Assembly (NCBI GenBank): GCA_030248065.1
Contig: JASAMV010008455.1
Span: 22,902 to 86,901, forward strand
Source: Rhynchonema sp. JSB1_4
Lineage: Eukaryota > Nematoda > Chromadorea > Monhysterida > Xyalidae
Reading direction: 5' to 3'
Length of the DNA: 64,000 bases
The notes under the pieces are model-generated. The model saw only the letters and a program-made list of their open reading frames with translations. It did not search any database and was not told where the DNA came from. Shown here one piece after another: positions 809 to 64,000 of this stretch (positions within the stretch are counted from its first letter, which is position 1; every line of letters begins with the position of its first letter). Made by a program: the position numbers and the translations under genes.

Positions 809-1891
809 TTAAAGTGACTCTACAATTGATCGTTGACCGCGTTTGTTTGCAGTCATTTTTTCAGAAAATGAAGACTAGGTCTCAGAAACCCAGATTTAGG
901 AAATAGATTTTCAAGTCGTTGCTTTGTGGTATTTCACGGAGCCCACACATTTTTACAGGAGGAGAAAAAATGAAAAAAGTTTGAGGCAGGCCTGTGCGAA
1001 ACACAAGGTAATCCAATAGAAGATATTTTCAGCGTTTTATACTCAGACGTTTTTCTGTTAAACGAGATATAAAGCATTGTGCGAAACGCCATGTGTGATA
1101 AATAATAAACGAAACACTCCAAAAAATCAAGCCATTTTAAACCACCCTTTTACTCTAGCATAATTTTAAGCATCTGTGGTGAATGAAATAAGTTGTCAAT
1201 TAGAAATAAAAATCGTCTAATTCTCTAGTATTTAGGATGTGCTTTTCGTTTTTCAAAACCCTACACAGCTCACACAATGTTTACCACAACATGCGCAAGG
1301 CACCCATTCCCACAGCGCACACACACAAAGCTGAAACATTATCCCCGGCCGGCTGTGTGTTGTCGTTGTGTATACGCTGTGCGTGGTCTGAATGGCTGCC
1401 TTGCGCATGTTGTGGTAAACATTGTGTGAGCTGTGTAGGGTTTTGAAAAACGAAAAGCACATCCTGAATACCAGATAATTAGACGATTTTTATTTCTAAT
1501 TGACAGCTTATTTCATTCACCACAGATGCTTAAAATTATGCCAGAGTAAAAGGGTGCTTTAAAAAGGCTTGATTTTTTTGGAGTGTTTCGTTTATTATTT
1601 ATCACACATGGCGTTTCGCACAATGCTTTATATCTCGTTTAACAGAAAAACATCTGAGTATAAAACGCTGAAAATATCTTCTATTGGATTACCTTGTGTT
1701 TCGCACAGGCCTGCCTCAAACTTTTTTCATTTTTTCTCCTTCTGTAAAAATGTGTGGGCTCCGTGAAACATCACAAAGCAAAGACTTGAAAATCTATTTC
1801 CTAAATCTGGGTTTCTGATACCTGGTCTTCATTTTCTGAAAAAATGACTGCAAACAAACGCGGTCAACGATCAATTGTAGAGTCACTTTAA
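809..1891. mobile_element. 1.08-kb foldback element with TTAA target
   Basis: The two halves are inverted copies of each other for nearly their whole length, meeting near 1350. The edges read TTAA-AGTGACTC on the left and GAGTCACT-TTAA on the right, so a TTAA target duplication (piggyBac-like non-autonomous element) is the simplest reading. The mirror-image open frames in it are products of the palindrome and not genes. The right arm keeps an intact GTGAAACATCAC where the left arm has a two-base-changed copy, so the arms have begun to diverge. Confidence 0.85.
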
Positions 1892-1961
1892 GCGCGGAAT
1901 GACACTCCAGCTGGTGCGTTCTCTGTTTATCTATGCGGTTTAATTCAAAGAGCGCACCAAG

Positions 1962-2480
1962 CAGCGTTCTGCGGGACAGAAGGCAGCACCAAAAACACTA
2001 TCTTTCAGATAAAACATATATAACTGGAGGAATGCTTTGCCTTATGTAGTCTGCGTAAAACATCAACTTGTGTTCTGCATGAGAGCAACCCAAGCACAAA
2101 CATACAATGTACTTTGGCATGTTTTGACGTTGTAAACGCCAAAAGCAGCATACTGCGGGGCAGGATACTACGCCAAAAATAGTGTCTTTCATATAAACAT
2201 ACGCGCCCAGTTAACTAGGCCAATAATATAGCCTCGATAAAACATCAGCATGTTTCTATGCGTTTAGCGTTGTTGCATTGAACATACTCTGGCCAAAAAG
2301 CGCTGACTACGGTTAACTTGGATTCCTTTCGGATTTTTCGCACCCAGCACAACCAGTATTCTGCGAGGCAGTATACTGTGCCAAAAACAGGATACGTAAG
2401 CTATCTTTAATTTCCCTCTGAGTCGGCGCTGTTAAATAGTCTTGGTAAAACATCAGCACGTGGTATATCTATCTGTGCAC
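1962..2480. repeat. Degenerate tandem repeat, about 180-206 bp period
   Basis: Three diverged units begin near 1962, 2143 and 2349. Each opens with a block like CTGCGGGGCAG, continues with a CCAAAAA block and ends at a TAAAACATCA block. Similarity is patchy, so this is an old array. A weaker fourth unit may follow up to about 2640. Confidence 0.6.
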
Positions 2481-2741
2481 AATGAAAATGCTGTGACAAA
2501 AAAGTGTTTACTGCGATGCATTTCGATTGTGATGTTTCACACAGGGAGTGGCATCCTGCGGGTCGCAGAATCCCAGTTCAAAATATACATAGGAATAAAC
2601 ACCGGACCACAAATAGTTTGTGAGCCCAAACAGGAATCTGTTATTGCTTGCAGAACCTCCGGATCGGCCTTGGTGGCGCTGTATATAGCAGCAGTGAATC
2701 ATCAGATTTTTTTAAGATCAGGAAAATGCTGCGGTGGTGGA

Positions 2742-2742
<1 letters not shown>

Positions 2743-2793
<51 letters not shown>
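2743..2793. repeat. (CA)n microsatellite
   Basis: About 51 bp of uninterrupted CA dinucleotide. Open frames running through it encode only His-Thr repeats and are not genes. Confidence 0.98.
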
Positions 2794-2795
<2 letters not shown>

Positions 2796-3116
2796 ATTTA
2801 TGTCTCTTGCACTTAAATGTTGCAGCGTTTCACATGCACTCAACGCAGTAAAAACTGTACATTCATGCCCGGGTAGGCTATTATTTCTGCCTATTTACAG
2901 GTTGGTAGCAGCAGATCATGAGGCCCAAAACTTCAGATTTAGGATGTGTATGATGCACATGCGCGCATGCAGTTTGTACCTTGCGGTCCAAGATTTGTGG
3001 TGTCGTGGGAAAACCAGGGGTGCTCATCATCAACAAAAACCACGTATTTGGTTTCATACATTTTTGTTCTTTTGCGTTTTTCAAACATGACGAAAATGCT
3101 TCGCCCACACACTAAC

Positions 3117-3202: not shown

Positions 3203-4156
3203 CTGAAGGAAAATGTGTAAAACTTGAAAATAATTGACACAAATAATTTTAAGAAGTTATTTCGGTCAACGGAAATCATCCATTTTGCTCTCTTTACCTT
3301 GAAAAGAGAGGTTTTTGGCAAGCGGATGAGACGAAACTGTGTCACTATTCATTCTACTGATTCTGACGCAACAAAAAAAATAATAATTCCGAAGCGGATC
3401 TCATTGATTTCATCATAACTACATCCTGCAAACTAATTTAGTTGGGAAAAGCCAACATTATTTCTGCTCTTTTCTGATGTACGTGTGAAACATCACCTGA
3501 TCTTCTACATATTATCAACTAAACATCAAAATATGAAATCGAACCCTGATGTCGTACAAACACAACCCGAAACCTCAAACAAGCAATATGTATGGATGAA
3601 GTCACTGACAGGTTGTTCAAAAATATTTTTTGATTTAATTTTTGTAAGTTATAATTTTTCAGAATCGATTCCCGGACTTGAACCCTTAACGGAGCTTGAC
3701 ACAATTCTGGCATGTCAGGTAAGACCACTGTTTATTTACCTTGACCCGAGATGTAGAGGGAAGTGCAAAAGTGTCTTTCCATTATATCTGACCTGCTGCT
3801 GGCTGCCTGGGATTATACAGAAGACATTTATTGTGCTTCAAAAATGTGTTATTCGGAACAAGCTAGCAACACAACAAGAAATGAACAAATATTTTATGTC
3901 TCGATAAACGACAACGAAACCCTTTTAAATTGTGGAACTAATAGCAGCTATTGGTCGCACAATGACTTTATAAGAATTGGTCAAATTATTTTCCTGAATC
4001 GTAAAGCACAAAAGTGACGGGGCAATGACGTTGCGTTGCGTGATCGCACACAAAGCATGTAGTAAAGAGAATGTTTCAGACCTGCGGCAACGTGGTTGAT
4101 CTGCTAGATTTTTTTCAGCTGAAAATGTTTTGTGAGAATCGCAAATATCACAGTGG

Positions 4157-4826: not shown

Positions 4827-6302
4827 CATCTGCAACTAATGTTTCAAAGGGCTTTGAATTGCAGCAACACTCGCTGCCCGACTCATTCGACGGCTGGCAA
4901 AATGCCAAACAGTTTGTGCTGTGCAACACACACGGCGAACAATGCTACTACGTGATTGAAACATCATCCAGATGCTGTGACGCGTGTTGTGGCGAAGACA
5001 CGGCGCTCACGTTGCACATTGTCGACAAGAACAATCGAGTAAATCAGTCAATCACCAGTTGCGATTCATGCCATCAACTAATGAATCTAATTTGACACGC
5101 ACACAGGAAGTCATTCGCATTCGTCGACCATTCAAATGCCACAAATCTCCCTGCTGCGCATTGTTGTGCCGCACGCCGTGCTGCACCAGCTGTTCGAAAT
5201 GCAGCCAGTGTTGTGTCGCATGTTGTTGTTCGTGTGGCGACCACACAATCGTCGAAACACCGCCAGGTTGGTAGCGGAATCCATTTTTCAAGAGAAAATC
5301 GCAATTTCGGTTGATACCATACCCTGAACCAGTCCATCCTCTTTCTTGTGAGTTCAACGGGTTGCCAGAAACCACTCAGGAATGTGTAACACAAATAGAG
5401 CCCGTTGTGCTCTGTTTGGAAAACAACTGTGGGAGAGGGTCGCAAAAGAGATTGTTAATTTAAAAAGGGCACTATCAAGGTGATAGAGTACCAAGAGAGC
5501 AGACCACCATCTGGTATTATACAAGCAGGCACGCCAATCGGTCGTATCCGACAAAGCGGCACGCGATCCACGCTCACGCTCCAAGTGCTACAAGTCGAAC
5601 AGCAATCGATCGCGCCAAAACCACAATTCAAAATCGACGGGCCGCTCTGGGCGTTCGGCTTCAATGGCAATGTCGAATTCAAGGTGGCTGGCTGATGTTT
5701 CACACCCGGTTTTTAGGCCAGCGGCCAACTCGTTGATTTGTTCGGCCAGAGTCGGACACCGGTGGTCCTGTTGTGTTGATGATATTCAAAACTTCGAGAT
5801 TCACAAATGTCGCGCTGACTTCAACAAGCGTGAAAGTTCTTAATTTTCAAGCTGTCTGAGATCGACGCGTAGAGCTTGTTTCGTGGCATTAGCAAATATC
5901 GAATACTGGAACATAACGTGCCCAAGTGACAGGACCGTCGATCCCTAAGCTTGATGGCGAACACAGTCAGACACTTTACAGATATTCTCCTCCACCGAAT
6001 CCAAACAAATTGGTTCGGTCATCAAGAAATGGAAAGGTACTGATGACGACCTATTCGCTCTGACATGTTTGTGATGTTTCATGAGTATATTTTCTCTCGA
6101 TGTGTACTTTTTGGTGAATGTGTGATGTTTCAGTTCCGAAAGATCTGGACGTTCGCATGAAGGCGACACTCATTGGCTCAATGTTCCTGATTGTTAGTTT
6201 AATTCTTTCATATCTTTATGCTTTATCTCTTTAAAATTATTCGCATGTATGTGCACCGTTCTCCATTTTCAGAACTTCTTAGCATTTGAACAAAACGAAT
6301 GA
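4827..6302 (+). CDS. Phospholipid scramblase (5' end not found)
   Basis: Family role: calcium-dependent bidirectional movement of phospholipids across membranes, by a single C-terminal membrane helix. Exons read as 4827-5038, 5107-5266, 5529-5683, 5982-6066, 6134-6192, 6273-6302; phase closes throughout and the stop is TGA at 6300-6302. Family landmarks in order: a conserved block around CDACCGEDTALTLHI, the Cys-rich core (exon 2 has about 17 Cys, including runs CCC), the FKIDGP block, then IGSVIKKWKGT. Next comes the acidic calcium-loop region ending in PKDLDVRMKAT and the helix LIGSMFLINFLAF. About 230 residues are visible; a Pro-rich N-terminus and start codon were not recognised, so 4827 is an acceptor and not a start. 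The protein ends only a few residues after the helix, normal for the family. The intron 6067-6133 is 67 nt and carries TGATGTTTCA at both ends; the intron 5684-5981 has it 9 nt after its donor. Confidence 0.88.
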
Positions 6303-7013
6303 ACTATCAGCGAAACTTGAAGAAAAATTCCATGAAAAATTAAAGTTAGAATGCGACAATAATACCTATACATAAGACATCAAGTGACAGTTACGTACGC
6401 AAGAAGAGGTGGGCTGATGTTTCATGCGCTGTTTGTATTCTCCGTCATTAACCAAATCCATGCCATTATAGATAGCAAATAAAACTAGTTTCGTATGGCA
6501 TGCTGGTCACGCTCTCTATTTTGAGAACCGGACGACACTAATAACCAAACGCACCGATATTGATGCCGATCAAAGCCAAGGTTTCGCCAGTGAAGTTCAC
6601 GTGAAAAATCTGGATCTCATCTCCATCATCGCATTCGTCGATTAGTGTTTGCGCTGATAGCCTGTAGCATAGTGGAGTGTGGTAGGAACACAAGGGTTAT
6701 TCTGGCGGGTTCGACACCACTCGGTGACAACCGACCAATACGGTGGCTGATGAAATTTTGCAACGACTATTGGCTACCGTACATTTATTTAGGTACCAAA
6801 CAACAGCTTCACCACACCAAATGTTGAAAATTATTTTGGAAGGGTTTTTATGATATGAAGGGCGACTGTAAGTGATTCTAACGTACATTGCCTGTACTCA
6901 AAACATCAAAGTGCCGCACTCACGTCAACGGGAAGGTGATGCAAATGTCCTGTTGTTTCAGCGAAGTTCGTTTGTGTTTGTGATGTTCGCATTTCATAGT
7001 CACACTCGCGCAC

Positions 7014-8620: not shown

Positions 8621-11600
8621 TCATAAATTCATATGATTCTCATCCTCAACCATCACAACCGTGGTACTACCACTTTTGACCCACCCTGTAGCATCGTTGC
8701 TATACTGCTGGTCCTCAATTGGTTTGGGACTCGTTGGTACAGGGGGTGGCGTTATGATTTCTTGCGACAGAAAATCATTCGTGAAACTCAGTGGTATTCG
8801 GGCTGATGGTCGAAGTCCCTGCTGGTGGTCAGCTGATGGAATTGGATCCGGAGCAGGAATCGGAACTTGAACCGGAAACTGTTGACGCAAGTTGGGATCG
8901 GTGAATCTCGGTTCATGGATTGGCAGAAATTCGGTGACCGACAGTTTCGGCACGATTGATGCTTGCTCATCAACTATTGTCTCGTGCTCAGCCCCGGTAT
9001 AAGTCGGGACTACAATATTTTCAGGCTGATTATTAATCACGTTCGTGATCTGAGTCGGGTCGGGGCTGGTCTCGGTCGGGGAGTCCATTGGCGAGCCCAA
9101 TGTGAACGAAGGCTGCAAGGTTCTCGTCAGTGTGGTCAATGAAGTGGATTTATGCAGCTGTTGCCTGCCTGATAAATGCGAGATCAGGCTCATATCAATG
9201 TTGTCCGGTCTGAGACCAGGATCTGCGGCATTCGATAAATGACGGCGGTCCTTCATGTAGAGCTCGATGAATGAGTCCAGCTTCTGTTCGATCGAGCCCA
9301 TCTGGAATTCTTTTGTTTTCTCTTCTTTCCTTTACTGCAATATTGTTCTTGTTTTCACCTTTCACTGTTGAAACAAGCTTTACATACGCAGCCCATCGTG
9401 ATGTAAATAGATTGAGATCAATAGCTGTTTAGCCGGTGTTTCTCACTCACTCACTGTGTAAAGAATAAAGTCGGCCTCAACCACGGTTTTTCAATATGAT
9501 GCAGGTTGTGGAAAAAAACGTAAATGACACGACAAATGTTTTGACGAACAAATCGGTACAGGTACCGATCGCACCCAAGCAGAGGCCAACAACAAAAAGT
9601 ATCCAAAGTTCCTACCTTATTCTCAATGCGCATCACTCTGTTGGTCAATGTTTGTCGCGGTTTCGAATCGGTCTTGGGCTTGCCGTTGATCATTTCAAGA
9701 CTGAAACATCAGAAAATAAATTAGGCGGCTGCGTGAAAGATGTCAGGCTGTTACGTAGTTTTCATTTTGAGAGAAAAGTTCGCCATTGGACAATCATGTT
9801 CAAATTCAATCATCCTAGGGCAAAATAAACAATATTTTTGCTTGGACACACGACAGAGGTTACACTTATTATACCCATTGGTGTGTGGCGTGTCTAAGCA
9901 CGTTGAAATGTTCATGCACCTATACATACATATACAGTACATACAGATCTCCGAGTAAGTTTGGGGGTAGGGTCCCGCGAAAACCGAGTGCCCCGCGGGG
10001 CACGCGGGTGGTGCGGGTGACCTTTCTATAACACACGGGCATATGCCCCCCGCAGCGTCCGCGGGTCCCGCGCACCCACCCGCAGCACACGCGGGGCCCC
10101 CCGCGGGTGGCGCGGGGCCCGCACTCCCCCGCGCTGGCCGGCGCAGGCTGTTTTTAATGAATATTTGGTTTTTTAAGTGAAGCTTTACTGCTGAATGGGT
10201 GAAATAATAGCAGAGTTGAATTTATATGTTGTTTACCGTGATAAAAACGTGTGTTTAGCCCAGAGCTGGGATTTTTGGATTTGTAACAAAGTCATTATGG
10301 CAGCACAAAAAGACCAAAAGTGCGTCATTTGTTTATGTGTATTTGCTTTTAAATGCAATGTCAAAAGCAAAATCACCCTGAAACAAGAATTGCTGATGCA
10401 TTTTAGTCGAAGCCGGATACGGCATTAATTTCCAGTTAACCGCAGAACAAGTAATAGTTGTGAAACTCCACGGCAAAAACAGTGATCGGCTGTACATATT
10501 CATCCAGTATTCATGTACAGTACCGTCCATATTCATGATTCACTGGGTTCGCATTTTCAGCGATGTAGTTGCAGAGAGGTTGCAATTGTTGCTCGTTTGT
10601 GTTCTCATTGCCACTGTTGTATTGTGGTTGGGCATAGATTTTGAAGTTCATTGTGTTCTCGCTTGTTTCACGGTGTGGTTTAGGGGTTGAACTTTTCCAG
10701 TTTGCGTCGTGTCAAGCTTGTTTCGCACTGGTCCTTTTGGTACAGTACTTTATGTCTGGTGATTATGTGCCATTTGCTAATTGCAGCTAGCCTGTCGAAG
10801 ATTATCTATAGCTTCGAATTTGCTTTTTTTGAGCAGATTTTTGTATCATAAGTCTACATTTTATCGTCAGTTTTGGCCGTTTTAGTTTTTTGTGATTCAT
10901 GTTTCTGGTGCGTTTTAGTCAAAAAGTGCAAATTTTACGTCATGTTTCATGTGCAATTTATTCGTCAACCACAGGTTTTATCGATCAGTTATCATTTAGA
11001 TCATATAGTTTTGTTCAATATCGATACTTTAATGCCATCATTAACATTTATACTTGCGCGCAAATGAAGAAGTAAACCCTATTTTCCTGTATAATAACCT
11101 GCATTATTAGCTTTGATGTTTACTTTAGATGCAGAATTATGCTGCCAAAATGACTTTGTTACACGTCCAAAAATCCCAGCTCTGGGCTAAACACACGTTT
11201 TTATCTTCGACAGGCTAGCTGCAATTAACAAATGGCACATAATCACCAGACATAAAGTACTGTACCAAAAAGGACCAGTGCGAAACAAGCGAGACACAAA
11301 ATTAGGTACATCGCTGAAAATGCGAACCCAGTGAATCGTGAATATGCAGGGTACTGATCAACTGCTTATGTTGACTTAATTTTGATGGTCAAAGATGATG
11401 TTTCACCATTTGTTTCGCCACATACTTTTGCTGTTTAAATTACTGTTCAGCGCAAATTACTGTTTTTGGGGACAAATGTATCGTCATACCTATGTTTCTG
11501 TACTTTGGAATCTAGCAGCCGATCACTGTTTTTGCCGTGGAGTTTCACAACTATTACTTGTTCTGCGGTTAGCTGGAAATTAATGCCGTATCCGTCTTCG

Positions 11601-19339: not shown

Positions 19340-20530
19340 CTGAAACGTCAAGGGCTCGATAATACATGTATGTACTGTAGTTGATGGTCGGTCCAGTCCG
19401 CGCCGGTCTTACGTCAAGAAGTGAAACATCACAAAGCCAAAACGAACCTAGCAGTCGTAGACACCAGCCGGGCTTCGGGTGATTTTCGGCCTTTGTGAAA
19501 CGATCGGTTGGGATTTCAGGCTTAGGAGGCGACACTCCGCAACACTTTTCGAGAAACCAAAGCTGAAAATACTTTGTTTTTCATTTTTCCTTAATTTTGT
19601 GAAACCAGAGTTTGATGTCAAAGATGGGCATGATAACAACGATGACACGCACGACTATGAACTGCATAATGTGAAAAGCACTAAGAAATACAGTATTTTA
19701 ATCAACACAACAATAGTAATCTGCAAAAGCAAAAATTTTTTAAAAATATTCAAAAGATCGGTTGATATACAGCACCATAATCTGGTGGAGGTGGCCAAGT
19801 CACGGTTGGCAAAAGCATTGAAGCGTGCGAAAACAGCGGTAAACATTGACTTGTGGTTTTTTGTAGAAATCAGAGCGGTTACTTTTTATCAAGTTGTGCA
19901 GCAGGTGGAAAATCAGGATTTGCAGCTATGTATGTATGCGTGCGCATATGTATAGGTATAAGGTATGTATGTCAAAAGTCGGTCACAACCTAACGTCAAG
20001 AATAATCTGACAAACGCAAATACCTACATATGTATGCCACAGTTGATAAAATTGGAGCGGAAGAAGATTCGAATCGGGCCTGAGATACATACTGCAGACG
20101 CAAAAATTTAAAGTTACTGTCCTGATCCTTGGTGCACATTGCAGTGGTAAGCCGTGACAAAGTCAAAACCGTCGCTTGAATCATTGCCAGAAAATTTGCG
20201 ATTATACAATAGAACAAACGATAACATTGAACTGGAATCCGTTTGCATCTTGCAATAGATTGAGATTAAATCGGACAAATTTGCAAACAAACAAGCAAAC
20301 ATAACCAAGCGGATTTGTGTCAGAAAGTGCCAAAGACGACAAATACATAGTTACACTGTAGGTCAGTAAAGTTTTTCTGTAAAACACGAGCCGTGATTGT
20401 TTGCCATAACCATTAACTAGACAGATTACCAAAAGTTTATGTGTGCCTATACTTATGTATATGCAGGTGCAGAAAAAAGTCTAAAAATGTATTTCTCTCT
20501 ACACAAAATCAGGCCCAAACCAGAACCCAC

Positions 20531-24740: not shown

Positions 24741-24779
24741 AATGTGAAACATCACCCAGCCCATTACCAGGTCGCAGTG

Positions 24780-25175: not shown

Positions 25176-25877
25176 ATCGGACCACCAACAAGCACATATA
25201 CCTAACAACATCGACAAATAATACAAATCAAAACGCACTCTCAGTGTTGCCTAGACCATTAAAACCGACAAAACAACATGAAAAAAATTTCAAAGTGCAT
25301 TAAAGTTTGTTTTTGAGCCCTCGCTTGGTATGGTTTTCTAAATCAATAATCGCTGCGGGCTAAAAATAATCTTTTCAACCTTGGCGATTTATGAAACATC
25401 ACACGATGTAAACACGTGCGTGATCATATAAATGGTTCCTGAAAAGCTGTGTATGATTTTGAGCAGAAAATTAATGAGATTCATCAACAACCAATAAAAG
25501 CAACTGATGTATAAAGAAAACTGTGTATTTATTCAATTATGTTGTTTTTAAGAGCGTGGGGTGGTAAGAATCGCAAACTACGGTTCACAAAACTGAAATT
25601 TTGGATATGGTTTTTTTGATGGGAAATCAATGCCACAACATATTTAGGAATGCTCACCAAGTTTGGCATTCCAAATTTAAGTATACTTTCAGTAATTTCA
25701 ATTTAAAGGTGCTCCGTTTGTATTTTTTGGGAAATTTTAAAAATGAAAAATGCTGAAAAAATAAATGTCAATCCAATTGGATCTCGGCCGATAAACTACA
25801 TTCGGTGCTGAAATTTGCAAACTCATAGCAGTTTTTTGTCCGCTTTTCAGCTGCGCAAAAATAGTTGCATGATATTG

Positions 25878-27844: not shown

Positions 27845-28157
27845 CCTGACTTTCACCGAAACTTCACTTGCATCTTCTCGACTCAAACACCCAAGCCTCA
27901 TCCTTCCACTCGCGAATTGGGCAAATAATCAGCAACGTTCATTGGATTGACGCAATCAATTTATTTCTACGGTTAGAAAATTATTTTTGTCTATTGGCTT
28001 CATTTATTGTTTCTTTCAGAGTGCAATCACGACAATATTACGTATGTAATTTCCACAGCCGGATAGCCAACATTTTCACCCTCCGTTAATTCGAAAACTT
28101 GACATCTAAAATACGTCGAGCGTGAAACATTACCCGGCCTATTCACAGGTCGCAGTG

Positions 28158-50715: not shown

Positions 50716-53700
50716 ATGTCAGTGATGACTGCCAAACGTCCTGTTCAATCAGCAAGCACTGGCAATGCTTGGACAAGTAAACAAGTAGAACCTATGAAAC
50801 ATCAGTCAGCCACGCAAACGCCAGTGGACCCAGATCTACAGGACGCAAAATACATGAATGGAAACAGCACGGCTCAGAGAGAGGTAGAAATTCAGGTTCG
50901 TGGTTTATATGGCCCAACAAATCGGGCTGCACTGTAATAACGTGGATTTTTGCCTCAGTAATTTGTTCACCGGTCTCAAACTTTCGCACTGACCGGTGGT
51001 GCATCAGGTCGTAGTCAGTGCACCAAACGCTAATTCGCCTGTTTCCACTTCTACACGTGACGTTTTGCATCTTGATCATCTGGATACAGCTTGAGAAAAA
51101 AGTTTCAGTTTCAATTAAGTTAGTCAGTCAGCATTAGTGGGGAACACACACGAATATTTTTCGCATTGGTGAGAAAAAAACGCTAATTTCGTGTTCGCGG
51201 GAGGAGTGATAATATCAGCGGTGTCTGCGCTGTGTCTTAACAGGTTTCATCAGTGTTAACACAGTCTGACAGCACAGTTCCGCCCACAAAGTTTGTTATC
51301 TGCTGCTGAGCCTGGTAACGCAGCCTGCAGCAAGTTTAGTGATTTCATAGGAAGTCACAGACAGATCAGCATAGGCAGGAATCAAAAGTTTTAGGCAATG
51401 TTCCTAGGCAATTAGGCAAACTTCGAATTGTCGTTATGTGAGTGCTTTACTCAAACAGCGCCAATTATTTCCATAACCATTCAGATGCCCAACATGCCAC
51501 AACCGTGTGCGCCCGCTCCAAGCAAGTCCGCCTCAATCGCCGGGGTATCGGATTTGTCGGACACCGCTGGATCCGGCTCGGATTCCGATTTTGAGTCCGA
51601 CCCAAGTGCTCCTACTCATTATTCACCTGCACCAGTTCGCACACAGAATGTGTTCGGGGCCACCAAACGACCCGCTACCACCGTTGCTGTCTTCAATGAA
51701 AACAGGGTGCAGGTATGGCTCCACGAGGGCTTCCTTCGTTTTTTCTAAAGGGACTTTTTCCTTTTGCTATATCCGGTATCCACGCTTGATAAAATCGGTT
51801 CTGGCTTCATTGGACGTGGCTTTTTTTCAAAGCAAAATTTTTGAACCGAACCGACGAGCAAATTGGTTTTGAAATACGGTGTTGCTCAGGGATCCCGCAT
51901 GAATTGATCTTTTATGCGGACCTCGATCGCAGGCTCTCTCGTGTCTTGTCATGGAAGGCACATAATTTCAAGTCAAGCATTAGTGGCCTGCGATAAATCA
52001 CATGTCAGAATCTGGGCCAACAAGGTCCATAGCTGGTGAAATAAATCCTGGTGTGGTCCATTGTTCTGGGCAGCAGGCACAGTGCCGCACTGCACAACTG
52101 AAACTGGCCTTGAACTGCAGGCTCTGGTCCATAATTGCCTACGTAAGGCGCAACAGGGTTTTACCAAATAAGGGTAAATGGGTAACCCACAATTATGCAG
52201 TTGGGGCGTTGGGGGGCATGGGGTAATACTTCCCAACTGCTGGGTATACATACAGTAGCTTTCTTGCTCCAAAACCGATGCCCCAAACTGGCTTGCTAGC
52301 TCCGGTCATCAAGTCAGAAATGTGTTGATTTTAGTACCAAAAATAGCCATTTTATGGTCCAAAATGGCCAAATCCGTTCAAATTTTCTCAGACGTGCACA
52401 AAAATACGCATTTTAAGGATTATTTTAGCATAATTTCGACCAATATCTATACCCCTGTTTTTGACTCCTAGACTATTAGCCCCAAATCGGAGTACCCGCT
52501 AGCTATGTAGCTAGCTTTCTTGCGGCGGACCCCTCCAGCTAGCTATTGAATAGCATTCTTGCACGTACCAGCTATGTATGTACATCACTGGTAAACGCAT
52601 GTTTACCTACTGCCAGATCTGACCCTTTTAGGTGTCCATAGGATGAAACTGAACATCCCCTTATAATCCTGCAGGTGCCCCGTTCTTTCACGCGCAATTT
52701 GTCGAACAGCCCCAGTCCGCAAGTGCCTAATCGTAGTCGTCGCGTGATAAGCGGTCGTGGCAATCCACGCACAAGTCACTCACCACACACACGGCTGCCA
52801 CAACCTTTGGTCGGATCACCAGGTGATGTTTCAATGTTTGGTCAGGGCGAATTTGGAATTTTGTCTCAAGGTGTCCCGCATATGACACCTTGATCAATGA
52901 AAACCAACCATTCAACCAACACTGAGAATGAACCTGGTAATATACAGCGAGTCGGGTACACATTTGCTCATACCCGTTGTATAATAACGTGTAGTGTACA
53001 GTATACACGTTTGTAGTTTGAACTTTTGTACATATACCAATTGGTCTTCAATCACTTGTATAGTGGCTGTGTCCGTTATACGGAACACACCCACTGTATT
53101 GATAGCAATGTATGGAGCTTTAGAACAAATATAATCTGGGATCAGAGATGTGCCAGCTTGAGTAATCACATTTTTTTATCTGATGAACTGCTATTCTGCC
53201 TCCACACATCCGCAAGCAGGTGTTCCAACGCACACGTTGTTTGCACGAACGAAGTTCCGAATGTACATAGTTTCAAGTACCTGTTGTTTTTCTCACTTTA
53301 TCTCAGTCGTGTACTGTACCGCATAGTGGCTTGCTGCTGGCGGAACATGGTGGTGTTTCGAATTTTTTTCAAACTTCGTTGCATCAAAAGAAACCTTCAT
53401 CCGGATCGGACTTTGCAGCAGAGCTCATTCATTCGTGTTTGGCGTATTGTTAATCAGCACACTGTGATATTATTAGCATCCACGCATCAGAGAGCTGTCC
53501 ATTGAGATTCACTCCAAGAAATCACTGGAAGGGACATTCCAAGTCGAAGCCCCGGTCCACCGCTTCAAAAAGCATGCGACCCAGATCTTCTGGTTAGTAT
53601 TTTAAAGGACGAAATATTGGGAACAATTGTGTGAAGTTTTTTTTGTTCTGACAAAAGGTCCGCTTTTTTAGTTGCCCAATCTTTGAAAGCCAAACCGAAC

Positions 53701-56700
53701 GTCTATTCAAATTTCTGTGTCAGTCGATACCCGCGACTTTTGGTGACACCGACAAAGAGCGCCAAACACACTTTTTCCGTTACAAAAATTTGTGACGTTC
53801 GAAAAAACGGCACTCACCGCAAGTCTTTGGGTCTGTTGCCAGGTGGGCACATACAGTATACCCAAGTTGTTTTTCCATCAGACTCACATGTAGTGCCAGG
53901 CACCATGTTTCAGTGTGCTGCGCACAAACCATAATCACGCGTTCGCGTGGGCAAGTATCATTCATGATAATGCGAATATTTATGAACTCTGCGTTCGTTT
54001 TGCATATTGACTGCCGAGAGGTGTCCTGTGTGTCCATCATGCACAAATTGCCGATTCCTAATTTAAGTGTTCGACGAGTCAATTATGTTCCTTTATGCCA
54101 TAGCGATCAGAAAATTTTGAAAATAATGGCATAACGTTAGCTAACGGTACTTCCGGCATCCGGAGATTTTTTTAGTTGGCATGAAATATTGTGGTATACA
54201 TGGGTTTGAATGACTTTTTTAATTGCGCAAACCTTCTTTCTGCTTGACGACACTAGTCAAACAGTGAACTTTCGAAACAATAATAGACCTACACATGGTT
54301 CAGATCTACGCACTTTTCCAATTAAACCTTTGGCGCAATGGCCCAAGTGCACCCAAAGCAGGTGCCTAAAGTTCCAAAATTGCTTTGTCATTTGTCAGGA
54401 CAAAGCCCAGTTTTAACCTGTACGGGTAACTGTGCCACCAACCGGTCACAAACAGCACCCAAATGAGCAAAAAGTTTGCTGTGTGTGTATTATTGTCAAA
54501 TAAACCGAGCAGTAATGATTCATAGATAGATACATTACAGTTAGTTCTGTTGTTGTCAGGGAGCCTGGATCCCAAACAATCGATTTTGATGACAACTTTG
54601 TGGGTTTTGATCCGCTGAACCGAGATATGCGCGCATAAGGCGCAATCCAAGCAGCGAATTCTCTACTGGAAACAAAATAATTAGTACTCTTCCCATACCG
54701 CATTCGGCTGTAGCTTATTTCGTCGCATGAACCATTTTGTTTTTTTTTGGAATTTGTCTGGCCAATTCTGTTCGTCCAAGACCTGCCTATTAGTACTTTG
54801 TACAATAATTGCTGCAGCAAAAAGCTGTGCTAGGTTCCTTCCGTGTATCCGCTTTGGTTTCCGACACAATTTTACAATGGACTAAAGTGTGCAACTCGCA
54901 GTGTTGGATTTAGTACACCCCTACCTGAAGCAGAAGGAAAATGCAGTAGGTTCGTCGAAGTCGAAAATTTCCCTGGAAATCAGCGCAGGCAGCAAGTTCG
55001 AACATATTGTATGTGCGTATCTTAATGAGAAAATAGCCTCACACGTCGAACATGAACTAAGTCACGGAACGTGGCATTAAAAACGCCTGAGGAAAAGGTT
55101 TTTTCTTGCCATATTCCGCTTTGGTTGCCACAACAAAAGTGAGTAAAGCATCAGCAAGGTTTATGACTTCGAATTTCCCCGACCTTAATCTAATTCCAAG
55201 CCTCTTGGATTTGCATAAAACTCCTGAAGATCAGCTTCCATTTGTCCCGGACAATAACATAATCCCCGCTCCATGTTGAATAACTGGAGCATCAATTCGA
55301 GCTTTGCTCTCCTATTGCACCATGGTCATGGTTGAATTGAAAACCTGCCCGCGTGTATGTATTTTGTACACACATGCGTCTGTGTATATGAGAGTTTGTA
55401 CAGTATGTAGGTACGTACCTACACGTTTTGTTTTGCAGACACGTCAGGTTTCCAAGGGCTTTAGCAGTAATTAGGGATATTTTCCATCCACAAATAAGCC
55501 TCAAAGCTATACCTAGGAAATTATGGACACTATGTTTTCCCAATATCGATGCTAATGCCATACCATGTTATCAACTTTTAATCCCGGCTGGCTATGCTGG
55601 CACAAGCCTGTCTCTGTGCCTGTTTATGCACCCGTCCACCGATCCTTTTGTTATTGGACAAAAATGGGGTGTGTCTGTTCCTGCTTTGTTTATGTTTTTA
55701 TACAGGGCAACATGTGACTTTAAAATGTTTACGCTTATTGTATATGCAATAAACATAAAAGTTTCTTCTTCGTCGCTTTATCATAAGGCTTCCTACACTG
55801 CTGCGTTTTACGCATACGATTAAAGAATTCTATGTCAGCAGAAGGCTTGGTTCCAAAATTCTATGGTTCTTCGTTAAAATTCTGATATCAGAGCACAATC
55901 TCTTGAGCGCTGGCAAGGAATACGATCAGGCCAAATTTGTAGACCCCCGACTATTCACCAACACCACGACGGCTCGGCGTGCAGGACCACTTCAACCGGT
56001 CAGACCCCCAACAGGGGTCGCCTCACAGCAGGGGTTTGAGGCCAGACCGAGGACTCCACCTACGCCACAGAACACGCGACAGAATGATCCGGAACAGAGA
56101 TTGAATCATTTGAATAGGAGAAGGTATGTCATTGTTTATATATCCATTGTGAAACATCAGTCTGCCTGTATTGACGATTGATGTTTCACTGGTAGTTTTG
56201 CACCGTTGATTAGAAACGTCAACCAATCTGCTTCAGATTTGAATCCGTTGGCAGAGTGGTTACGGTGGACACGTCACGCGCAAAGAGCAATCGTGCGGCG
56301 GTGGCATATTGCTGTCAGAAATTGGGATGGAAAGAGGTTCGACATAACTTTTGTTGATAATGACATGGCCAGGAAGCAAAAAGTGCCTTTTGTGACCTAT
56401 CAGTTTTAACTACTTATCTTTCATTGCCTTGCCGAGCATTTATTTTTGAAAACGTCAAAGGGATTTTTTATGAAACTCCTTTCGCTTACAAATTTCATGC
56501 GTTTGTTTCAACATTGCAGTATCCCGAAGGGCGAGACGACAAGAAACTATGCCATGTCTATTGGCACAACGTCGTGTACCCAGACCTGCGTCAGATTCTC
56601 AAACCAGGCACAAAAGTCAATAAATTCCCTGGTGAGTGCAATTTTCTCAAAGTTGCGATGTTTCATTTTCTGACAAATGGAGAATTTAAAAGAATTCCCT

Positions 56701-59700
56701 TTATTCCTCAGGCATGAATGAGCTTGCCAAAAAAATCTCTCTAACACGCTGCCTTCGCACCATGCAACGTTTGTACCCTGTTGAATTCGACTTCTATCCC
56801 AGATCATGGGTCATTCCAGAACAGCTGGAGAGGTGAGAGATGCTTGACCTTGACAGATCAGGGTACTAGATTCTCAAAGCTGATTATGGACAGGTGACAT
56901 AAGCCATTGGTTGTCAGACGGTCAAGTTTCCTTTGTTATCATGCCCAACGATGTTCACCAGATGGAGACTATCCTTCAATTCAAACAACCAACTTCACTG
57001 TCACCGACCGGTGTTGGCATCAGCATCGTGTTTGATCGCAGCCCTCACCATGTGATCTCTTATGATAACATAATTCAGGGCATTTTTGTGAACTGCAAAT
57101 TGACCAGTCGTTCACATACACTATGGTAATTTTTAACAATAACAGCGTGATCGATTACTTGAAAGACCATTGTACCTATCAAACGTGCACGTGCGCCAAT
57201 GCAGGTTCTACGAAGATTTCGACGAGGCCCGTAAGCAGCGTAAGGAACCGGCACGTCACCGAGAGGAGGATGACGCAAGTAGTGCGTCCGGCTCAGAACA
57301 TGAACACCAACCCAGACCTCAATGGTTCATCGTAAAACCTGATGATGGTTAGACGTGAGATTGTGTTGTTCGAATTTTTTGCGTTTGTGTCGATTGTCAA
57401 TTATCACACAATCGCATGCCAGAACGACTTCTACAGTGAAGACCACTCAAGCCACTCATTGACTATGTGCTTTCAGGTGCACAAGGCGGAGGGATCTACT
57501 TGATTTCACATCCCAATCAACTAAAGGATCGTAAACAGCGCCAAGTCATTCAGGTACTAACGTTGAAAAGTATTAAAAAAGAGTCATCAGCAACGAGGTA
57601 TACGCATACCACATGCTGTACATGGTCCTCTCTCACAGGAGTACATCGCCTATCCGTACCTACTGAAGGACAACCTCAAATTCGACCTCAGGGTCTATGC
57701 AGTCATAAAGAGCCTGAATCCACTGAGCATTTACGTGTCGAAGGAGGGTATGGCCAGGTAATTTTGACTAATTTTAGTGTAGTTCACGCCCATTGTCTAT
57801 TTAGTTAGGATTGTGTTCTCAAAGTACTCAAAATGACACTTTATGTTCGGGAAACTGAAAAATGGGCGCAGGTTTTGACATTTGTGAATGAAGTGTACGC
57901 ATTGACAAGAGTGCGTGATGTTTCAAGCAACATACTTGTTGGGTAAACATGTCTCATTCCAGGTTCTGCACCGAGCGCTATTGCGAACCATCGGAGAGTA
58001 ATCAATACACTGCATTTATGCATTTGACCAATTATTCGCTGAATAAAGAAAACAAAGATTACGTCCATGCCACTGGCCTGCAGGAGAATGGCAATAAACG
58101 ACTGCTAAGCACCGTGTTCCATCAAATGGAAGCCAGGGGTAGGTGTTCTAGTGTGCGTGTAGCGCAAGCGGTTTTGGCTTGGATGGCGGACGCACGGATA
58201 CATGACTTGTGTGGGATGAAGTTTCACAAACCCTAAAAGTTTTGCTGGTTTTCGATTCGCATTGCAGCAAGAAACCCATATAGACGTGCTCAAAAAAGTT
58301 AGCGAAATGCAACACACAAACGTCGGAGCTGTGGGAAAGAAGCATCCCGACATTGAATGAGAGATCATATTTTCATGTTTGTAACCACGTCCTGTGGTAC
58401 CTATGGTTCACAGCACAGGTCACACGTTAGACACATAACTGAAATAATCAGCCCATTAATCTAGGCGTGAATACGCGAAAAATCTGGCACAAAATCAAAC
58501 TGCTCATCGTCAAGACCACGTTGGCAATGGTGCCAGAATTGATGTTGCACTATGAGCACATGTTCAGTGGGACGGTCGGGCCGGGATGCTTTCACGTGAG
58601 TGGCTGACTGTGTGGATTGATGAATTGTGTGCGTATTTGTGCATAAGCCTCTTCTTGACATACAGTACTTAGGCACATTGGTCATCGTCAGTGGGAAGTG
58701 AACACAGTGCCAAGGCACCGTTAGTGGTACACCGTTCTAAAGCAACCAGCTGATGTTTCACTTCGCTCCATGCAAATTCTCAGTTTCAAGACTCTCATCA
58801 ACGATGACAAGCGACCTCAATAAGGTCACACCAATTTCCCATTTTGCGTGTTTTCGCCCATCTTTAAATCATCGCCTGTGCATTCCATAACACCAAGCTA
58901 CACATGAAAATTCGGGACATGTAAAGTCATTCGTGACTGCCCAAAATCTAAACGTCGGCCAACCAGCTGGTGTTTCACACACACGTGCAGATTCTCGGTT
59001 TCGACATTCTCATCAACGACGACCTGCAACCGATGCTGTTGGAGATCAACGCGTGTCCAAGTCTGACCCTGGGCCACGAAGTGAAACATCACTCGACATT
59101 GTCGGACTCCCAGTCTGGGTCGGGTTCGGGCTCAGACTCAGACCCGGACCTGTCGGAGACCAGGACCGAACCCATTGTCTTGCACAGTGTGGTGGATGAA
59201 GCTATAAAGATACCACTTGTTAGGGACACGTTGCTGTTGGTGATGGATGAATTGGGACCGAGGCACAGGGCCGGGTTGGTGATGTTTCATAATTACGGAC
59301 ATGGTTTTGAGAGCTTAGATTTTTTGTGACAGGTAATTTATTATCCTAACCAGTGGGCATGATAACAAGTCGTGATGATACTGCACATGATCTCATCGTT
59401 GAGATATTGGTCCTCCTAACTGCTGCTAACCAAATCGACGAATAACATGAAGCTTTAAAAACATGTGAATTGTGCAGAAATAACCGCTAGCTGCCGTTTT
59501 CAGCTAATTCTTTGATGGGGGAAGTGTGCACCAGGACATCGTCAGTGCAACATTTATTTCTCCACTCACCGAACGCCTTTAATTCCCAGCTCGGCCATCG
59601 AGCGCAGCTCCACGTTCGGGTCGAGTCTGCACAGTTTGGACGACAACGGTTCCAGTATAAGTCGGGAATCGCAGAGTTGTCTGTTCGAGATATTCCCCGG

Positions 59701-60568
59701 CAAATACCAGAGCCTAACGGCGCACATGCTCGTCATTGACAAGGCTGCCTATTTGTTTATGCATTTCATCGACATCAAGAAAACACTCCACATCACTATG
59801 AATGGCTGCAGGAATTTCGCGAGGTGGGCGCTAGTGGTGGGCTTATCGTTTAAATGTTGAAAAAGTAAAGAAAATTACCTGGATAAACAACTTTTATTGT
59901 TTTCAGAAAATGTCGTCTGCTGAGCACACAGCACACGGGTGAAATTGATTCGCTTTACTGCGACTATCTGAGAGCTCAACAGAAACCGGAGATGAAAAAT
60001 GCGGGTTAGTGAACCCTTGGAGTGCACTTCTTTTGAGGAATTACAGTAAGGTTGAAAGCACTGAACTTATTGTACAGGCTTTGTGTGGTGGGTGGTTACA
60101 GTTGGTAAGTAATGAGATTGCGTGTGTTGCTAACATCGCATGCAGATACTAATCAATAAAAATCAACCAGAATTATTTTTTGCTGGTTGGACACCTAGAG
60201 TATGTGATTCCAACAGCAGTGATGTTTCATCAGAAGGCGTTGCAAAATACGTCATTCCGTTGGTTTCCGTTGGAATTCTATCTATATCATTGATTTAATA
60301 CCGATCCTGGGATCCAGGTTTCCCAAGATGATGTTTCATGCACACATTTTCCAAAAAATGGTCAATATTTTTGCGGATGGCAGGTATTCCATTCCACGGG
60401 TTCGTCGACATCCTGCTAGTGCTGGCGCGGCGACACTTTAGCCGAAACGGTAGTCACCCACTTTTGATGGCATTCAATCAGCTGATCGATCATTGTGTGT
60501 CCAAGTTGAGACATCATGGTGTCAGGAGTGCACGATTTAGGCACAAAGCCGTTAGTGAACAATTTTGA
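50716..60568 (+). CDS. Tubulin polyglutamylase, TTLL11-like
   Basis: TTLL enzymes are ATP-grasp ligases that add glutamate chains to tubulin tails; TTLL11 is an elongating polyglutamylase of cilia and spindle microtubules. Exons: 50716-50895, 51485-51712, 52675-52822, 53491-53592, 53672-53842, 55892-56123, 56196-56382, 56520-56631, 56712-56832, 57205-57347, 57477-57553, 57639-57757, 57963-58138, 58465-58595, 58991-59274, 59590-59823, 59907-60004, 60384-60568. They total 2928 nt (975 residues plus stop), phase closing throughout. The first about 400 residues are Ser/Pro-rich and disordered. The catalytic core runs CHVYWHNVVY, VNKFPGM, FYPRSWVIPEQ, WFIVKPDDG, GGGIYLISHPNQL, KFDLRVYAVIKSLNP, ARFCTERY, FMHLTNYSLN, ILGFDILINDD and LLEINACPSL, with the Lys, Asp and Glu/Asn ligands of the family present. 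The choice of TTLL11 over TTLL6/13 rests on KFPGM...ISLTRCLRTMQ and SLNPLSIYVSKEGMARFCTE. An Asp/Ser/Gly insert follows the core. The exon end 56382 and the first exons are the least certain parts. Confidence 0.88.
58742..58830 (+). pseudogene. Decayed partial copy of the next TTLL exon and its acceptor
   Basis: About 89 bp aligned at roughly 75% with 58956-59043, which covers the end of the intron and the first about 53 bases of exon 58991-59274. Shared blocks include CAACCAGCTGATGTTTCAC versus CAACCAGCTGGTGTTTCAC, and CTCATCAACGATGAC versus CTCATCAACGACGAC. In the copy the CAG acceptor has become CAA and the frame is broken by TAA. It is a tandem duplication inside the intron that lost its splice site. 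Confidence 0.75.
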
Positions 60569-60792
60569 GGCACGTTTTAAACATTGGTGCCATGCGTGGA
60601 AATGCGTCCGCCTGCATGATTCATTCGAGCCACACTAATCACCCGAATCAAGGTTCGGTTCACATTCCCTCAAGATTCGATAAAAAAAATATATCAGTTA
60701 AAACTGTGATAAAAGGCTAATACAAAATAAAGGAAACAAATATATCAGTTTCAAAGAATAGCATACGGACAATGAAATATGCTCATGCAGGT

Positions 60793-61131: not shown

Positions 61132-61201
61132 ACAAGAATGTGAGTGCGTCGAAATGCCTGTTGATAATCTGGACTACATGTATTTATTTATCTTATTTAT
61201 T

Positions 61202-61555
61202 TACATACAGTACCTTTTTCTTCAACGGGGTTGCACGTTGCAGCAATCGAGTTTCAGTTACTTTCAGATCAAAACTGATTATCGTGATTGGGACACAAGT
61301 ATCGATATTCTTCTTTTGTAAGATATCGATTACATTCTGGCACTTATAGGTCGTAACTGTTGAAGCGCGCTTTTAATCTGAATTTAGATTAAAAGCGCGC
61401 ACCAACAATTACAACCTCAGGTACCAAACGAACACAAGAAAATTGTAATCGACTTTAATCCTAAAAATTACAAAGATTGATACTCGTGGTAATCAGTTTT
61501 AACCTGAAAGTAACTGAAACTCGATTGCTTTACCACGTTGAAGAACAAAATGTAA
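61202..61555. mobile_element. 0.35-kb foldback element
   Basis: Arms share TTCTTCAACG, GCAATCGAGTTTCAGTTAC and further blocks in inverse order. The centre has a perfect palindrome of GCGCGCTTTTAATCTGAAT type. Edges TACAT on the left and its inverse on the right; a TA target is possible. Confidence 0.75.
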
Positions 61556-62689
61556 TATAATAGTGGTTGTTGAAAATAGTGTTACATATGTAGAAATTGC
61601 GATCGCTTCAGGCGGCGATATGGTAATATTTTCAAACATTTTCGACAGAGTTCTTCGGGGCTTTAGTTAAAGTCTCATTGCTTACACTTTTACAGAGGTA
61701 TTACGTATCCTGGTTTTGACGGTTCCTACATGTGGGGCTCTGAGTCTGATTGTCTGGTTAGCTTTACTGTCGAATTATCTACAAATCCTTGTTATTTAGA
61801 TTCACATACAAATGTTGTTAGAAAGCAATTGTACCTATCGTGTCGCGCTTTTGCTGCTTCATGAGATCTGCTCAATATCAAAAGAAATACATGGTTTTTC
61901 GATGATTATGTTCATTGATATTTTATTGCTTCATGATTTTCTTGCGGGGTTTTTTTTCAAATGTACTCGTATGTAGCCAGGTGGTTTTACCCATGTAACA
62001 TGTGCATTTCTACTTGATGCGTTGATCTTGAACTTGCTCTGTGATTGTTAGACAAAAATATATGTTGTTCTGAGAGTTGTGCATCAGCACGCGCCTTCAA
62101 AACGGTTGCTCCACAAGCTGCAAACAGCTTAACTACATACAGTGATTTTTTGCGTTTTTGCCCAATTTATATTTGTAAAATAAAGCGTACAATTTCGTTC
62201 TAAGGAAGCATGATTTGTCACAGGGCAAGATTTATTCACAAAAAAAACAAAATTTATAAAATTTCAAACTATGTAAACCTCAAAATACTGCACATGCTTC
62301 GTGGCAGTCAGAAGAAATCACAATCACGAACAGAGGAATTTTTCGTATAAAAGGACACAAAAGAGTTGAAAACTTCATTGGCGCAAAAAAAATCAGACAC
62401 CGTATCCAGGGACTAAAACTACAAATTTGGAGTAAATTTTTATTTATAAAAATAGTCGCAATCGTAAAAGATGATCGTATGTAATCAAACTTCGCAGTCG
62501 GTCTGGTTTTCGTTGATCTTGCAGCGCAGTGTGAAACATGACGCATTCAGCCTACAGCAGCAGATTGGTATTGATGTTTCACGCACCACACAAGTGTATC
62601 ATAACTGATCCCAGACCGAGACGAACTTAGAGACAAGACGTGAAAGCACGATGACGTTTCACAATATTCGAAATTTAAAAAATAATTGA
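61556..62689. other. No gene recognised
   Basis: AT-rich stretch lying between the 3' end of a plus-strand exon and the 3' end of a minus-strand exon; presumably 3' untranslated and intergenic sequence. Two motif copies lie at its right end (62532 degenerate, 62572 exact). Confidence 0.5.
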
Positions 62690-62839
62690 TCAAAATTTTT
62701 CATCCGTATTCGCCTGTTGTTGCCTTTGTCTGTTGTTATTGCCATTTGAGTCGTCCGAATTTGATCCCGGCGATGGGGTACCGCTGCTCGGGGGTGGTGC
62801 GAACGTGTTCGCATCAAGCACGGGGCGACCACGGCTGAT
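62690..62839 (-). CDS. C-terminal exon of an unread minus-strand gene
   Basis: A 150-nt terminal exon: ATTCAG acceptor above 62839, then SRGRPVLDANTFAPPPSSG, a Ser/Pro/Asp/Asn-rich run, NNNRQRQQQ, and TGA at 62692-62690. Low complexity of this kind suits a disordered C-terminus. Upstream exons would be to the right; none was identified with confidence. Confidence 0.45.
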   Translation of the reverse strand: MSRGRPVLDANTFAPPPSSGTPSPGSNSDDSNGNNNRQRQQQANTDEKF

Positions 62840-63070
62840 CTGAATGGTTATAAGCGCTATGAATGATTGAAACATAAGCGCGCGGCAGAGAACTTTGTCG
62901 TAAAACGCAGTCTGATCCAACTACTGTATAATGCTGAAAAACTTCGCCATATCAAAGCATGATTCACAGTTGATGTGACCCATCGCCAACACTGCAGCGC
63001 ATGCTAAACCTAGAATTTTTATGCAACGTGTATCATATCTATTTTTGTTAAGCCATTGATGCAAACGATT

Positions 63071-63395
63071 GCAACGATGGGAATTCGACCCAAAGCGAGG
63101 TCAACTGAGAAAAATGATCAAGCTGCGTCATAACAAACGTGCGCAAAGGCAGATTCAGCAACAAAATGTTTATTTCAAAACTTGCGCCGTTGAGGAGGAG
63201 GAACTCCGTTTGAGGGAAGCTTTAGTCACCACATCAGGATCGCATGTTGCACAAAAATCTCGCCGTTTGGACTTGACCAGGCACAGTAAGCACTGTGGTG
63301 TGGCCTGACCCAGGATAATGTTTCAGCAATCTGTCAACTACCGTATAACCCAACCGGCTGTCCATTCCTTCGCGCGACAGTCATGTAGAATCCGA
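63071..63395 (+). CDS. Two candidate exons of a basic, charged protein
   Basis: A plus-strand open stretch from about 63071 encodes QRWEFDPKRGQLRKMIK and further Arg/Gln/Glu-rich sequence, coiled-coil in character, up to a GTAAGC donor at 63287. A 42-nt intron ending TAATGTTTCAG leads to 63329, where the phase-matched frame stops at TAG 63393-63395. A different frame, reached by a CAG acceptor at 63391, stays open to a GTAAGA donor at 63490. Which is used cannot be told. The opposite-strand exon at 62690-62839 is close by, so the two genes would converge or overlap. Family not recognised. Confidence 0.3.
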
Positions 63396-64000
63396 ATCTG
63401 CCCCGGGTCTGCACCCATTCCATACCACCGACTTTGGGACGCGGAATTTGGAATCGATTCGGCTCAAGCGCGCACAATCTTGGAAGTGGTAAGATTTGCA
63501 TTGTAATTTTATGTGATCAGAACACAGAACATTTTTCTTCACCTATTCTGTCAACGAATTTTACCAATATGTACAAACATATACGCAGGTACCGACAGCA
63601 AGAACTTTGCGTGTAAAACATAGCGGTCCGGTAGGCCTCCGATTGACCGGTAGTCAACCGCGGTTGCGCCAAAAATCCTGCGCCCGGTTACGCAACTTGC
63701 ACGGTAATCTGTACATAGCCCAATCCTTTACCCACACACACTGCTTCACAAATGGTTCAACTTCAGCGCACCAATTTTAGCTCAAAGTTCACCCTCCTAT
63801 ATAGGTATTTGTCACACATCCGTGTGTGAAACGTGAGTCGGCCAGACCACTCACCGATCACTGGTCCATTCGACTGTATTGGATGTGGGTGGTCGTTGTT
63901 AGGTGACGACCGGACTTAAAGGAACGATGATTCTGACTTGAAGCGTACATTTCGTGTTGAGTGATGTTTCACACACCAGGAAGTTTTACTTTGTTATATT

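Follow-up and report, generated by a model that had tools for sequence, protein, structure and literature searches.

A sharp 10-mer dispersed through a Rhynchonema genome resembles the promoter element of its U1, U2 and U5 genes and may be a piRNA upstream motif

The 64-kb window (the whole stretch of DNA analysed here) holds a scramblase-type gene, a TTLL11-type gene, a pair of tandem paralogues, a U5 snRNA gene (37725..37841, minus strand; Rfam RF00020, 87.2 bits) and 32 exact copies of the 10-mer TGATGTTTCA, 18 on the plus strand and 14 on the minus strand. In dinucleotide shuffles of the window, the 10-mer occurs 0.53 times on average, and 32 or more copies were reached in none of 100 shuffles. 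An earlier note on this DNA had likewise counted 32 exact copies, far beyond chance, and 31 of its 32 coordinates are right; the remaining inverted copy, which it placed at 4967, lies at 4957..4966 on the minus strand. The further one-base variants that it mentioned are also present, since 71 sites against 10.75 expected are found in the window when one mismatch is allowed.

Exact plus-strand matches lie at 2530..2539, 6415..6424, 32546..32555, 34970..34979, 52824..52833, 59280..59289, 60220..60229, 60329..60338, 62572..62581 and 63962..63971, and exact minus-strand matches at 3486..3495, 9702..9711, 12093..12102, 19422..19431, 25392..25401, 32685..32694, 35730..35739, 38263..38272 and 50795..50804. 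The copy at 5693..5702 (plus) is preceded by the 5' extension GGCTGGC, and that at 39976..39985 (plus) has the full extension GCTGGC. Some copies ride in repeat families: the copy at 1764..1773 (minus) lies within the foldback repeat family TTGCTTTG-TGATGTTTCAC-GGA, and that at 11396..11405 (plus) is in repeated DNA with a 91% identical copy in another fetched locus (L045). The copy at 24745..24754 (minus) stands at the start of a conserved block common to the tandem paralogue at 28122; strong conservation begins at the motif, past which most of the DNA has diverged. Upstream of the U5 gene, a PSE-like element, GGATGTTACAC, which is an snRNA form of the motif, occupies 37877..37887 (minus) and starts 46 nt from the gene. 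The remaining copies are placed in the two homology-read genes below.

In the whole genome (204 Mb), there are 37,556 copies of the 10-mer but 345 of the reversed word, a very large excess. The word TGATGTTTCAC occurs 17,175 times against 112, and the 17-mer GCTGGCTGATGTTTCAC 495 times against none reversed. The 10-mer is a sharp word: TTATGTTTCAC, one base off, is at background level (711 versus 887). On the 5' side, the dispersed copies have a weak consensus GCTGGC; the "usual extension" GGCTGATGTTTCAC of the earlier note is overstated, this 14-mer occurring only twice in the window. The 3' side is, as that note held, hardly conserved: the next base is C in 48 of 79 unselected copies, the second base leans to A, and only isolated weak columns are seen further on. 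The spacing of copies gave no signal (8 pairs no more than 200 nt apart, with 5.2 expected). A second word in excess, AATGTTTCAG, was set aside, being judged by eye to come partly from repeat families and partly from acceptor-like sites. In a literature search with the motif letters, the matches listed looked unrelated.

The placement of copies relative to introns and exons was read in the two genes by homology, which fixes 7 copies; the copy at 59280 is not counted, as the donor at that place is not settled by homology. Six of the 7 lie in introns. The scramblase-type gene has a 67-nt intron (6067..6133, plus strand; 37.5 bits to PF03803 when its exons are joined), whose start and end had been proposed earlier; one copy begins 5 nt into it (6072..6081, plus) and another ends one base short of its end (6123..6132, plus), so that both of its ends are abutted. 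In the TTLL11-type gene, the copies at 56150..56159 (minus) and 56179..56188 (plus) share one inferred intron in opposite orientations. The acceptor once suggested at 56195 is unsuitable, as an in-frame stop TAG (56211-56213) would follow in the TTLL11-matching frame; the frame-keeping acceptor of this intron probably ends at 56236. Of the other copies in this gene, 57916..57925 (plus) is in the intron 57758-57962, and 58751..58760 (plus) adjoins a duplicated exon piece (58771-58816, compare 58986-59031). These four TTLL11 copies are each at least 26 nt from the nearest inferred junction, and the seventh, 59082..59091 (minus), lies in an open frame immediately following a Pfam TTL match.

Only 2 of the 7 placed copies, both in one intron, are thus within 20 nt of a junction, and the concentration at intron ends claimed in the earlier note is not upheld on this sample. 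De novo gene prediction with a self-trained HMM was too weak for placing splice sites; by this weak exon predictor, exon-like DNA holds 26 of 79 copies against 22.7 expected, so no depletion from exons is seen. Parts of the motif resemble splice consensuses (GTGATG is donor-like, TTTCAG acceptor-like), which would pull junctions inferred by eye towards the copies. Such likeness, together with short introns such as that of 67 nt, can account for the impression of an intron-end element. Among 79 unselected copies, G directly follows the motif in only 11 (14%), below the 22% background, so that a role as acceptor would rarely even be possible.

A different context is provided by the snRNA genes. 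Among the U1, U2 and U5 genes above the Rfam cut-off, 23 of 25 have a match of at least 7/10 to the motif at -44 to -48 (7 of 9 U1, 8 of 8 U2 and 8 of 8 U5), whereas 5.4% of 1,189 background windows do; the two genes without it (L178 and L182) are both U1. The exact 10-mer is found at -45 in two U1 genes. U1 promoters mostly read TTATGTTTCAC, most U5 promoters have TGATGTTACAC, five U2 promoters have TGA(T/C)GTGACAG, and in the four upstream stretches of U6 that were read, TGATGCTACAG stands at about -56 instead. The dispersed motif shares the GTTTC(A) core of the genome's own snRNA proximal sequence element (PSE), the type of element that is bound by SNAPc in nematodes, and GGCTGG(A/C)TGA(T/C)GT in 5 of 8 U2 promoters repeats the 5' extension of the dispersed sites. 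The 10-mer is accordingly read as a SNAPc/PSE-type half-site, for which binding is predicted; the view of the earlier note that no named element matches is not supported. The two forms also differ. The snRNA promoters mostly carry TTATGTTTCAC, TGATGTTACAC or TGATGTGACAG, and most of them continue into a GACT element that the dispersed copies lack (GACTA at 2 of 216 against 3.4 expected). Since TTATGTTTCAC, used at several snRNA genes, is at background genome-wide, the dispersed copies do not represent PSEs in general.

Signals of transcription were sought downstream of 189 de-duplicated sites, 62 of which had been chosen for the 17-mer. At the snRNA-like distance (about 40-50 nt downstream), the initiator YRNT is not enriched in these 189 sites: each 5-nt window has it in 55-64 sites, with a mean of 62.9 and a standard deviation of 5.0 over all windows. 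By calculation, about 88 would be expected if a fifth of the copies were active and their start varied by no more than 5 nt. Downstream of the 62 strong sites the sequence is flat as well. The GC content, taken as a proxy for the low-melting pausing step that dispersed-type species have after the start, is flat in 10-nt bins to +121 at the 189 sites, and neither a fixed-offset initiator nor a T signal was found in 88, then 128, then 188-189 sites. An excess of YRNT with T at +62 (z 3.1) is not claimed because 45 offsets were tested. The lack of an initiator and of a GC step at these 189 sites makes it probable that the majority of copies are inactive as piRNA loci, and a small minority, of a few per cent, may be active.

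The genome has a PIWI-clade gene: an exon on contig C1663 scores 59.2 bits to Drosophila Piwi and 23.9 bits to Argonaute-2, and contigs C4595 and C3368 give matches with the same layout. Arrays of TTAGGC type, the nematode-type telomere repeat, are also present. The exact SL1 spliced leader, taken as a 22-mer, is absent, and the Rfam search for SL1 scored 50 of 52,251 candidates.

Based on the results presented above, we favour, with reasonable though far from full confidence, the reading that the 10-mer is a PSE-type half-site, a close form of which fronts U1, U2 and U5, spread genome-wide as an upstream motif of piRNAs of the Ruby type. The 10-mer would be the segment under strong constraint within a SNAPc-type PSE, and a SNAPc-containing complex (SNPC-4 and partners) is predicted to bind GCTGGC-TGATGTTTCAC. 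RNA polymerase II would then start about 45 nt downstream and, at dispersed copies, may give a very short capped RNA, which at an active minority of sites could be turned into a 21U-RNA and loaded onto PIWI; most dispersed copies are probably silent. Against this reading stand the flat downstream sequence, the lack of depletion from exon-like DNA by the weak predictor, the background count of TTATGTTTCAC, the 32 of 228 fetched sites in DNA that is repeated among these loci, and the weak 5' half of most random copies, which differs from the published Plectus motif.

The same likeness to the snRNA element, taken together with the flat downstream sequence, would suit half-sites used apart from piRNAs, whether for docking, for loading or as decoys, and themselves giving no transcript, and the commonest snRNA form does differ by one base. 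We regard this as unlikely, as the genome has a PIWI-clade gene and the pattern described for nematodes in PMC6436959 links such half-sites to piRNAs. A related and still rather doubtful proposal keeps the piRNA connection: some 37,500 half-sites, sharp to one base and distinct from the form found at most snRNA genes, might together be a genome-wide array for the docking of SNAPc through which piRNA production is fed or organised, the copies not being promoters themselves and mostly starting no transcripts. It is improbable that the copies are what remains of transposons bearing the word. About five kinds of repeated sequence do carry the motif, and it is intact in some despite differing flanks (L033 versus L068 and L069, 69-74% identity); yet among the fetched loci only 32 of 228 sites lie in repeated DNA with a homologous partner spanning the motif, so a transposon origin for most copies is not supported there.

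The length and sharpness of the site, its weak 5' extension and its tens of thousands of copies might also suit some unrelated protein, for instance a zinc-finger insulator protein or one for chromosome pairing, with a likeness to the PSE that arose by convergence. This seems quite improbable, because core, 5' extension and position would all have to resemble those of snRNA promoters by coincidence. An intron-end or splicing element, for which the 67-nt intron with a copy at each end speaks, is the least credible: 4 of the 7 placed copies are at least 26 nt from a junction, one is in an open coding frame, two face opposite ways within one intron, G seldom follows the motif, and the word also stands at a fixed distance in snRNA promoters. 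The earlier observation is confirmed in part, and its interpretation is partly supported.

If the reading as a piRNA upstream motif derived from the PSE is right, the published link between snRNA and piRNA promoters gains a genome in which the two forms are nearly the same word, separable by one base and directly countable. The case would also illustrate that a promoter half-site can be mistaken for a splicing feature when read by eye, because it resembles both splice consensuses.

Several published systems bear comparison. In C. elegans, the motif CTGTTTCA lies about 40 bp upstream of piRNAs (PMC4015492), and its core TGTTTCA recurs in the 10-mer. According to Beltran et al. 2019 (PMC6436959), this Ruby motif derived from the snRNA SNAPc motif, and dispersed piRNA loci sit in introns in both orientations. 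As with the Ruby motif of nematode type I piRNAs, including the dispersed P-type loci of Pristionchus pacificus, the sites here are dispersed at very high copy number, with a PIWI-clade gene in the genome. Introns hold 6 of the 7 placed copies, one intron having both orientations, but the weak exon predictor shows no depletion from exon-like DNA. They differ in that A replaces C before the core and a fixed TG stands further 5' (TGATGTTTCAC), in the weak 5' GCTGGC half, and in the downstream region, where no initiator or GC step was seen. In the same study, Plectus alone was found to have Piwi among nematodes outside Clade V; its motif, compared here by its description only, joins a SNAPc-like 5' part to GTTTC almost always together. 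In Plectus sambesii and P. murrayi, as here, an snRNA-like 5' half directly precedes GTTTC, although this half is weak in most copies here. The GC content given for P. murrayi in PMC8022722, 43.6%, is similar to the 44.1% of the unselected sample, and the 37,556 copies of the 10-mer here stand against the 3,082 motif sites reported for P. murrayi in PMC6436959.

The word TGATGTTTCA occurs 32 times on the two strands of the window, against 0.53 copies from dinucleotide shuffles. This is the count given in the earlier note, which also located 31 of the copies correctly; only the inverted copy placed at 4967 was wrong by ten, its true start being 4957. In the assembly searched (204 Mb, 5,747 contigs, with the window as the final 64 kb of contig C5182), the 10-mer is present in 37,556 copies, compared to 345 of the reversed word, and TGATGTTTCAC in 17,175, compared to 112 reversed. 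Its density is 1 per 2 kb in the window and 1 per 5.4 kb on average in the genome. The assembly also holds (TTAGGN)4 arrays (773 matches, 0 for the reversed pattern); among the matches listed, nearly all are TTAGGC, the nematode telomere repeat.

The motif is sharply defined. In an unselected 247.6-kb sample comprising the window and 19 further stretches, TGATGTTTCAC is found 48 times, versus 0 to 3 for every single-base variant at the first ten positions; TTATGTTTCAC, the only such variant counted genome-wide, lies at background (711 versus 887 reversed). A weaker consensus, GCTGGC, immediately precedes the motif in a set of 128 sites and again in one of 133; at sites selected for GCTGGC (n = 61) it extends further 5' as G.YT(G/A), and the exact 17-mer GCTGGCTGATGTTTCAC occurs 495 times genome-wide and never reversed. 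Correlation among the six upstream positions is a little above that of independent shuffles (in the 133-site set, 7 full matches versus 1.7), in part because of repeat families. Past the next two bases 3' of the motif, only isolated weak columns are seen. Some copies lie in repeated DNA: for 32 of 228 fetched sites, homology to another fetched locus extends across the motif.

The window contains other repeats. Long foldback elements lie at 809-1891 and 9938-12049, with arms of 333 and 413 nt that are 95-96% complementary; the former, which recurs elsewhere in the genome, carries the motif in one arm and an altered form in the other. A second dispersed word, TGTTATCATGCC / GGCATGATAACA, has 9 copies of the 12-mer, for example at 17187, 17293, 18925 and 19624 (plus strand) and at 31396, 37443, 46385 and 56934, and minisatellite-like GGTATCCGGTATCC repeats lie at 30484-30846 and 51756.

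The proposed concentration at intron ends did not hold for the seven copies that could be placed. Placement used the exons of a scramblase gene (PF03803) and of a gene of TTLL11 type, whose match to the PDB TTLL11 chain scores 198.9 bits and which has a later exon matching TTL. Two of the seven placed copies are at intron ends, both in one 67-nt intron; four are at least 26 nt from any inferred junction, and one is within the open frame after the TTL match. The copy at 59280 was excluded since its donor could not be fixed, and the acceptor proposed at 56195 is incompatible with the reading frame. The 67-nt intron (6067-6133) has a direct repeat, TGTGATGTTTCA, at each end. A TTLL11 exon piece is duplicated at 58771-58816 and 58986-59031 (80% identical), and the motif-like words TGATGTTTCA and TGGTGTTTCA stand right before the two copies. 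In a single paralogue pair (24744, 28122), conservation is strong from the motif inwards and divergence is large beyond it, a pattern consistent with a constrained motif whose product would be unconstrained.

Small nuclear RNA promoters point to the identity of the word. The U5 snRNA gene at 37725-37841 (minus strand) has GGATGTTACAC 46 nt upstream. The genome was searched for U1, U2, U5 and U6, and 110 nt upstream were read for all matches over the cut-off for U1 (9), U2 (8) and U5 (8), and for four of the five U6 matches over the cut-off (two full, two partial). All 8 U2 genes, all 8 U5 genes and 7 of the 9 U1 genes carry, at -44 to -48, a match to TGATGTTTCA of at least 7/10; among 1,189 background segments drawn from the window, 5.4% reach that level. 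The exact 10-mer is at -45 in two U1 genes; the U1 copies L178 and L182 have no such match at -44 to -48, and neither do the four U6 stretches, which carry TGATGCTACAG at about -56 instead. Five of the eight U2 promoters (loci L070-L074) read GGC(T/A)GGCTGG(A/C)TGA(T/C)GTGACAG and so repeat the extension seen 5' of the dispersed copies; the other three (L075-L077) lack it. A GACT element comes next in most U1, U2 and U5 promoters, and dispersed copies are without it (GACTA in 2 of 216, 3.4 expected). The dispersed word therefore looks like one half of an element that would be expected to bind SNAPc. The snRNA form TTATGTTTCAC also occurs in about 20 copies, spaced roughly 260 bp apart on one strand, in contig C614 (1528-7509), perhaps a satellite or a tandem array of genes for small RNAs (spliced leaders, for instance).

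Were one copy in five active, with its start confined to five bases, the number of sites with YRNT, the downstream initiator used as a proxy for piRNA starts, would by simple arithmetic climb from about 63 to nearly 90 of 189. It is not raised at the snRNA-like distance (55 to 64 sites; all-window mean 62.9, sd 5.0), the highest window being 76 at +104; 62 strong sites are equally flat (16 to 21, mean 20.5), and no GC step was found downstream of the motif. Consequently, membership among active piRNA loci is not demonstrated, and the proxy fails for most copies. The assignment of the motif to the family of the snRNA proximal sequence element (PSE) and the Ruby motif of nematode piRNAs stands. 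A PIWI-clade exon lies on contig C1663 (59.2 bits to Drosophila Piwi versus 23.9 bits to Argonaute-2), and matches on C4595 and C3368 share its layout, which alone was compared. Among the other Piwi-domain pieces read, the one compared is Argonaute-like, and several more look so by eye.

The 10-mer is best read as a nematode promoter half-site of snRNA type, scattered through the genome in tens of thousands of copies, and is most likely a piRNA upstream motif of the Ruby type. This is a kind of element already known, and were the genome that of a Plectus, the motif might be one that has been published before. In C. elegans, CTGTTTCA is described some 40 bp upstream of type I piRNAs (PMC4015492). 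Beltran et al. 2019 (PMC6436959) derive the Ruby motif from the snRNA SNAPc motif, report Piwi outside Clade V in Plectus only, and describe the Ruby motif of Plectus as joined to a SNAPc-like 5' motif; for P. pacificus they describe dispersed piRNA loci that lie within introns in either orientation, and 21U-RNAs from about 20% of the motifs located in active domains.
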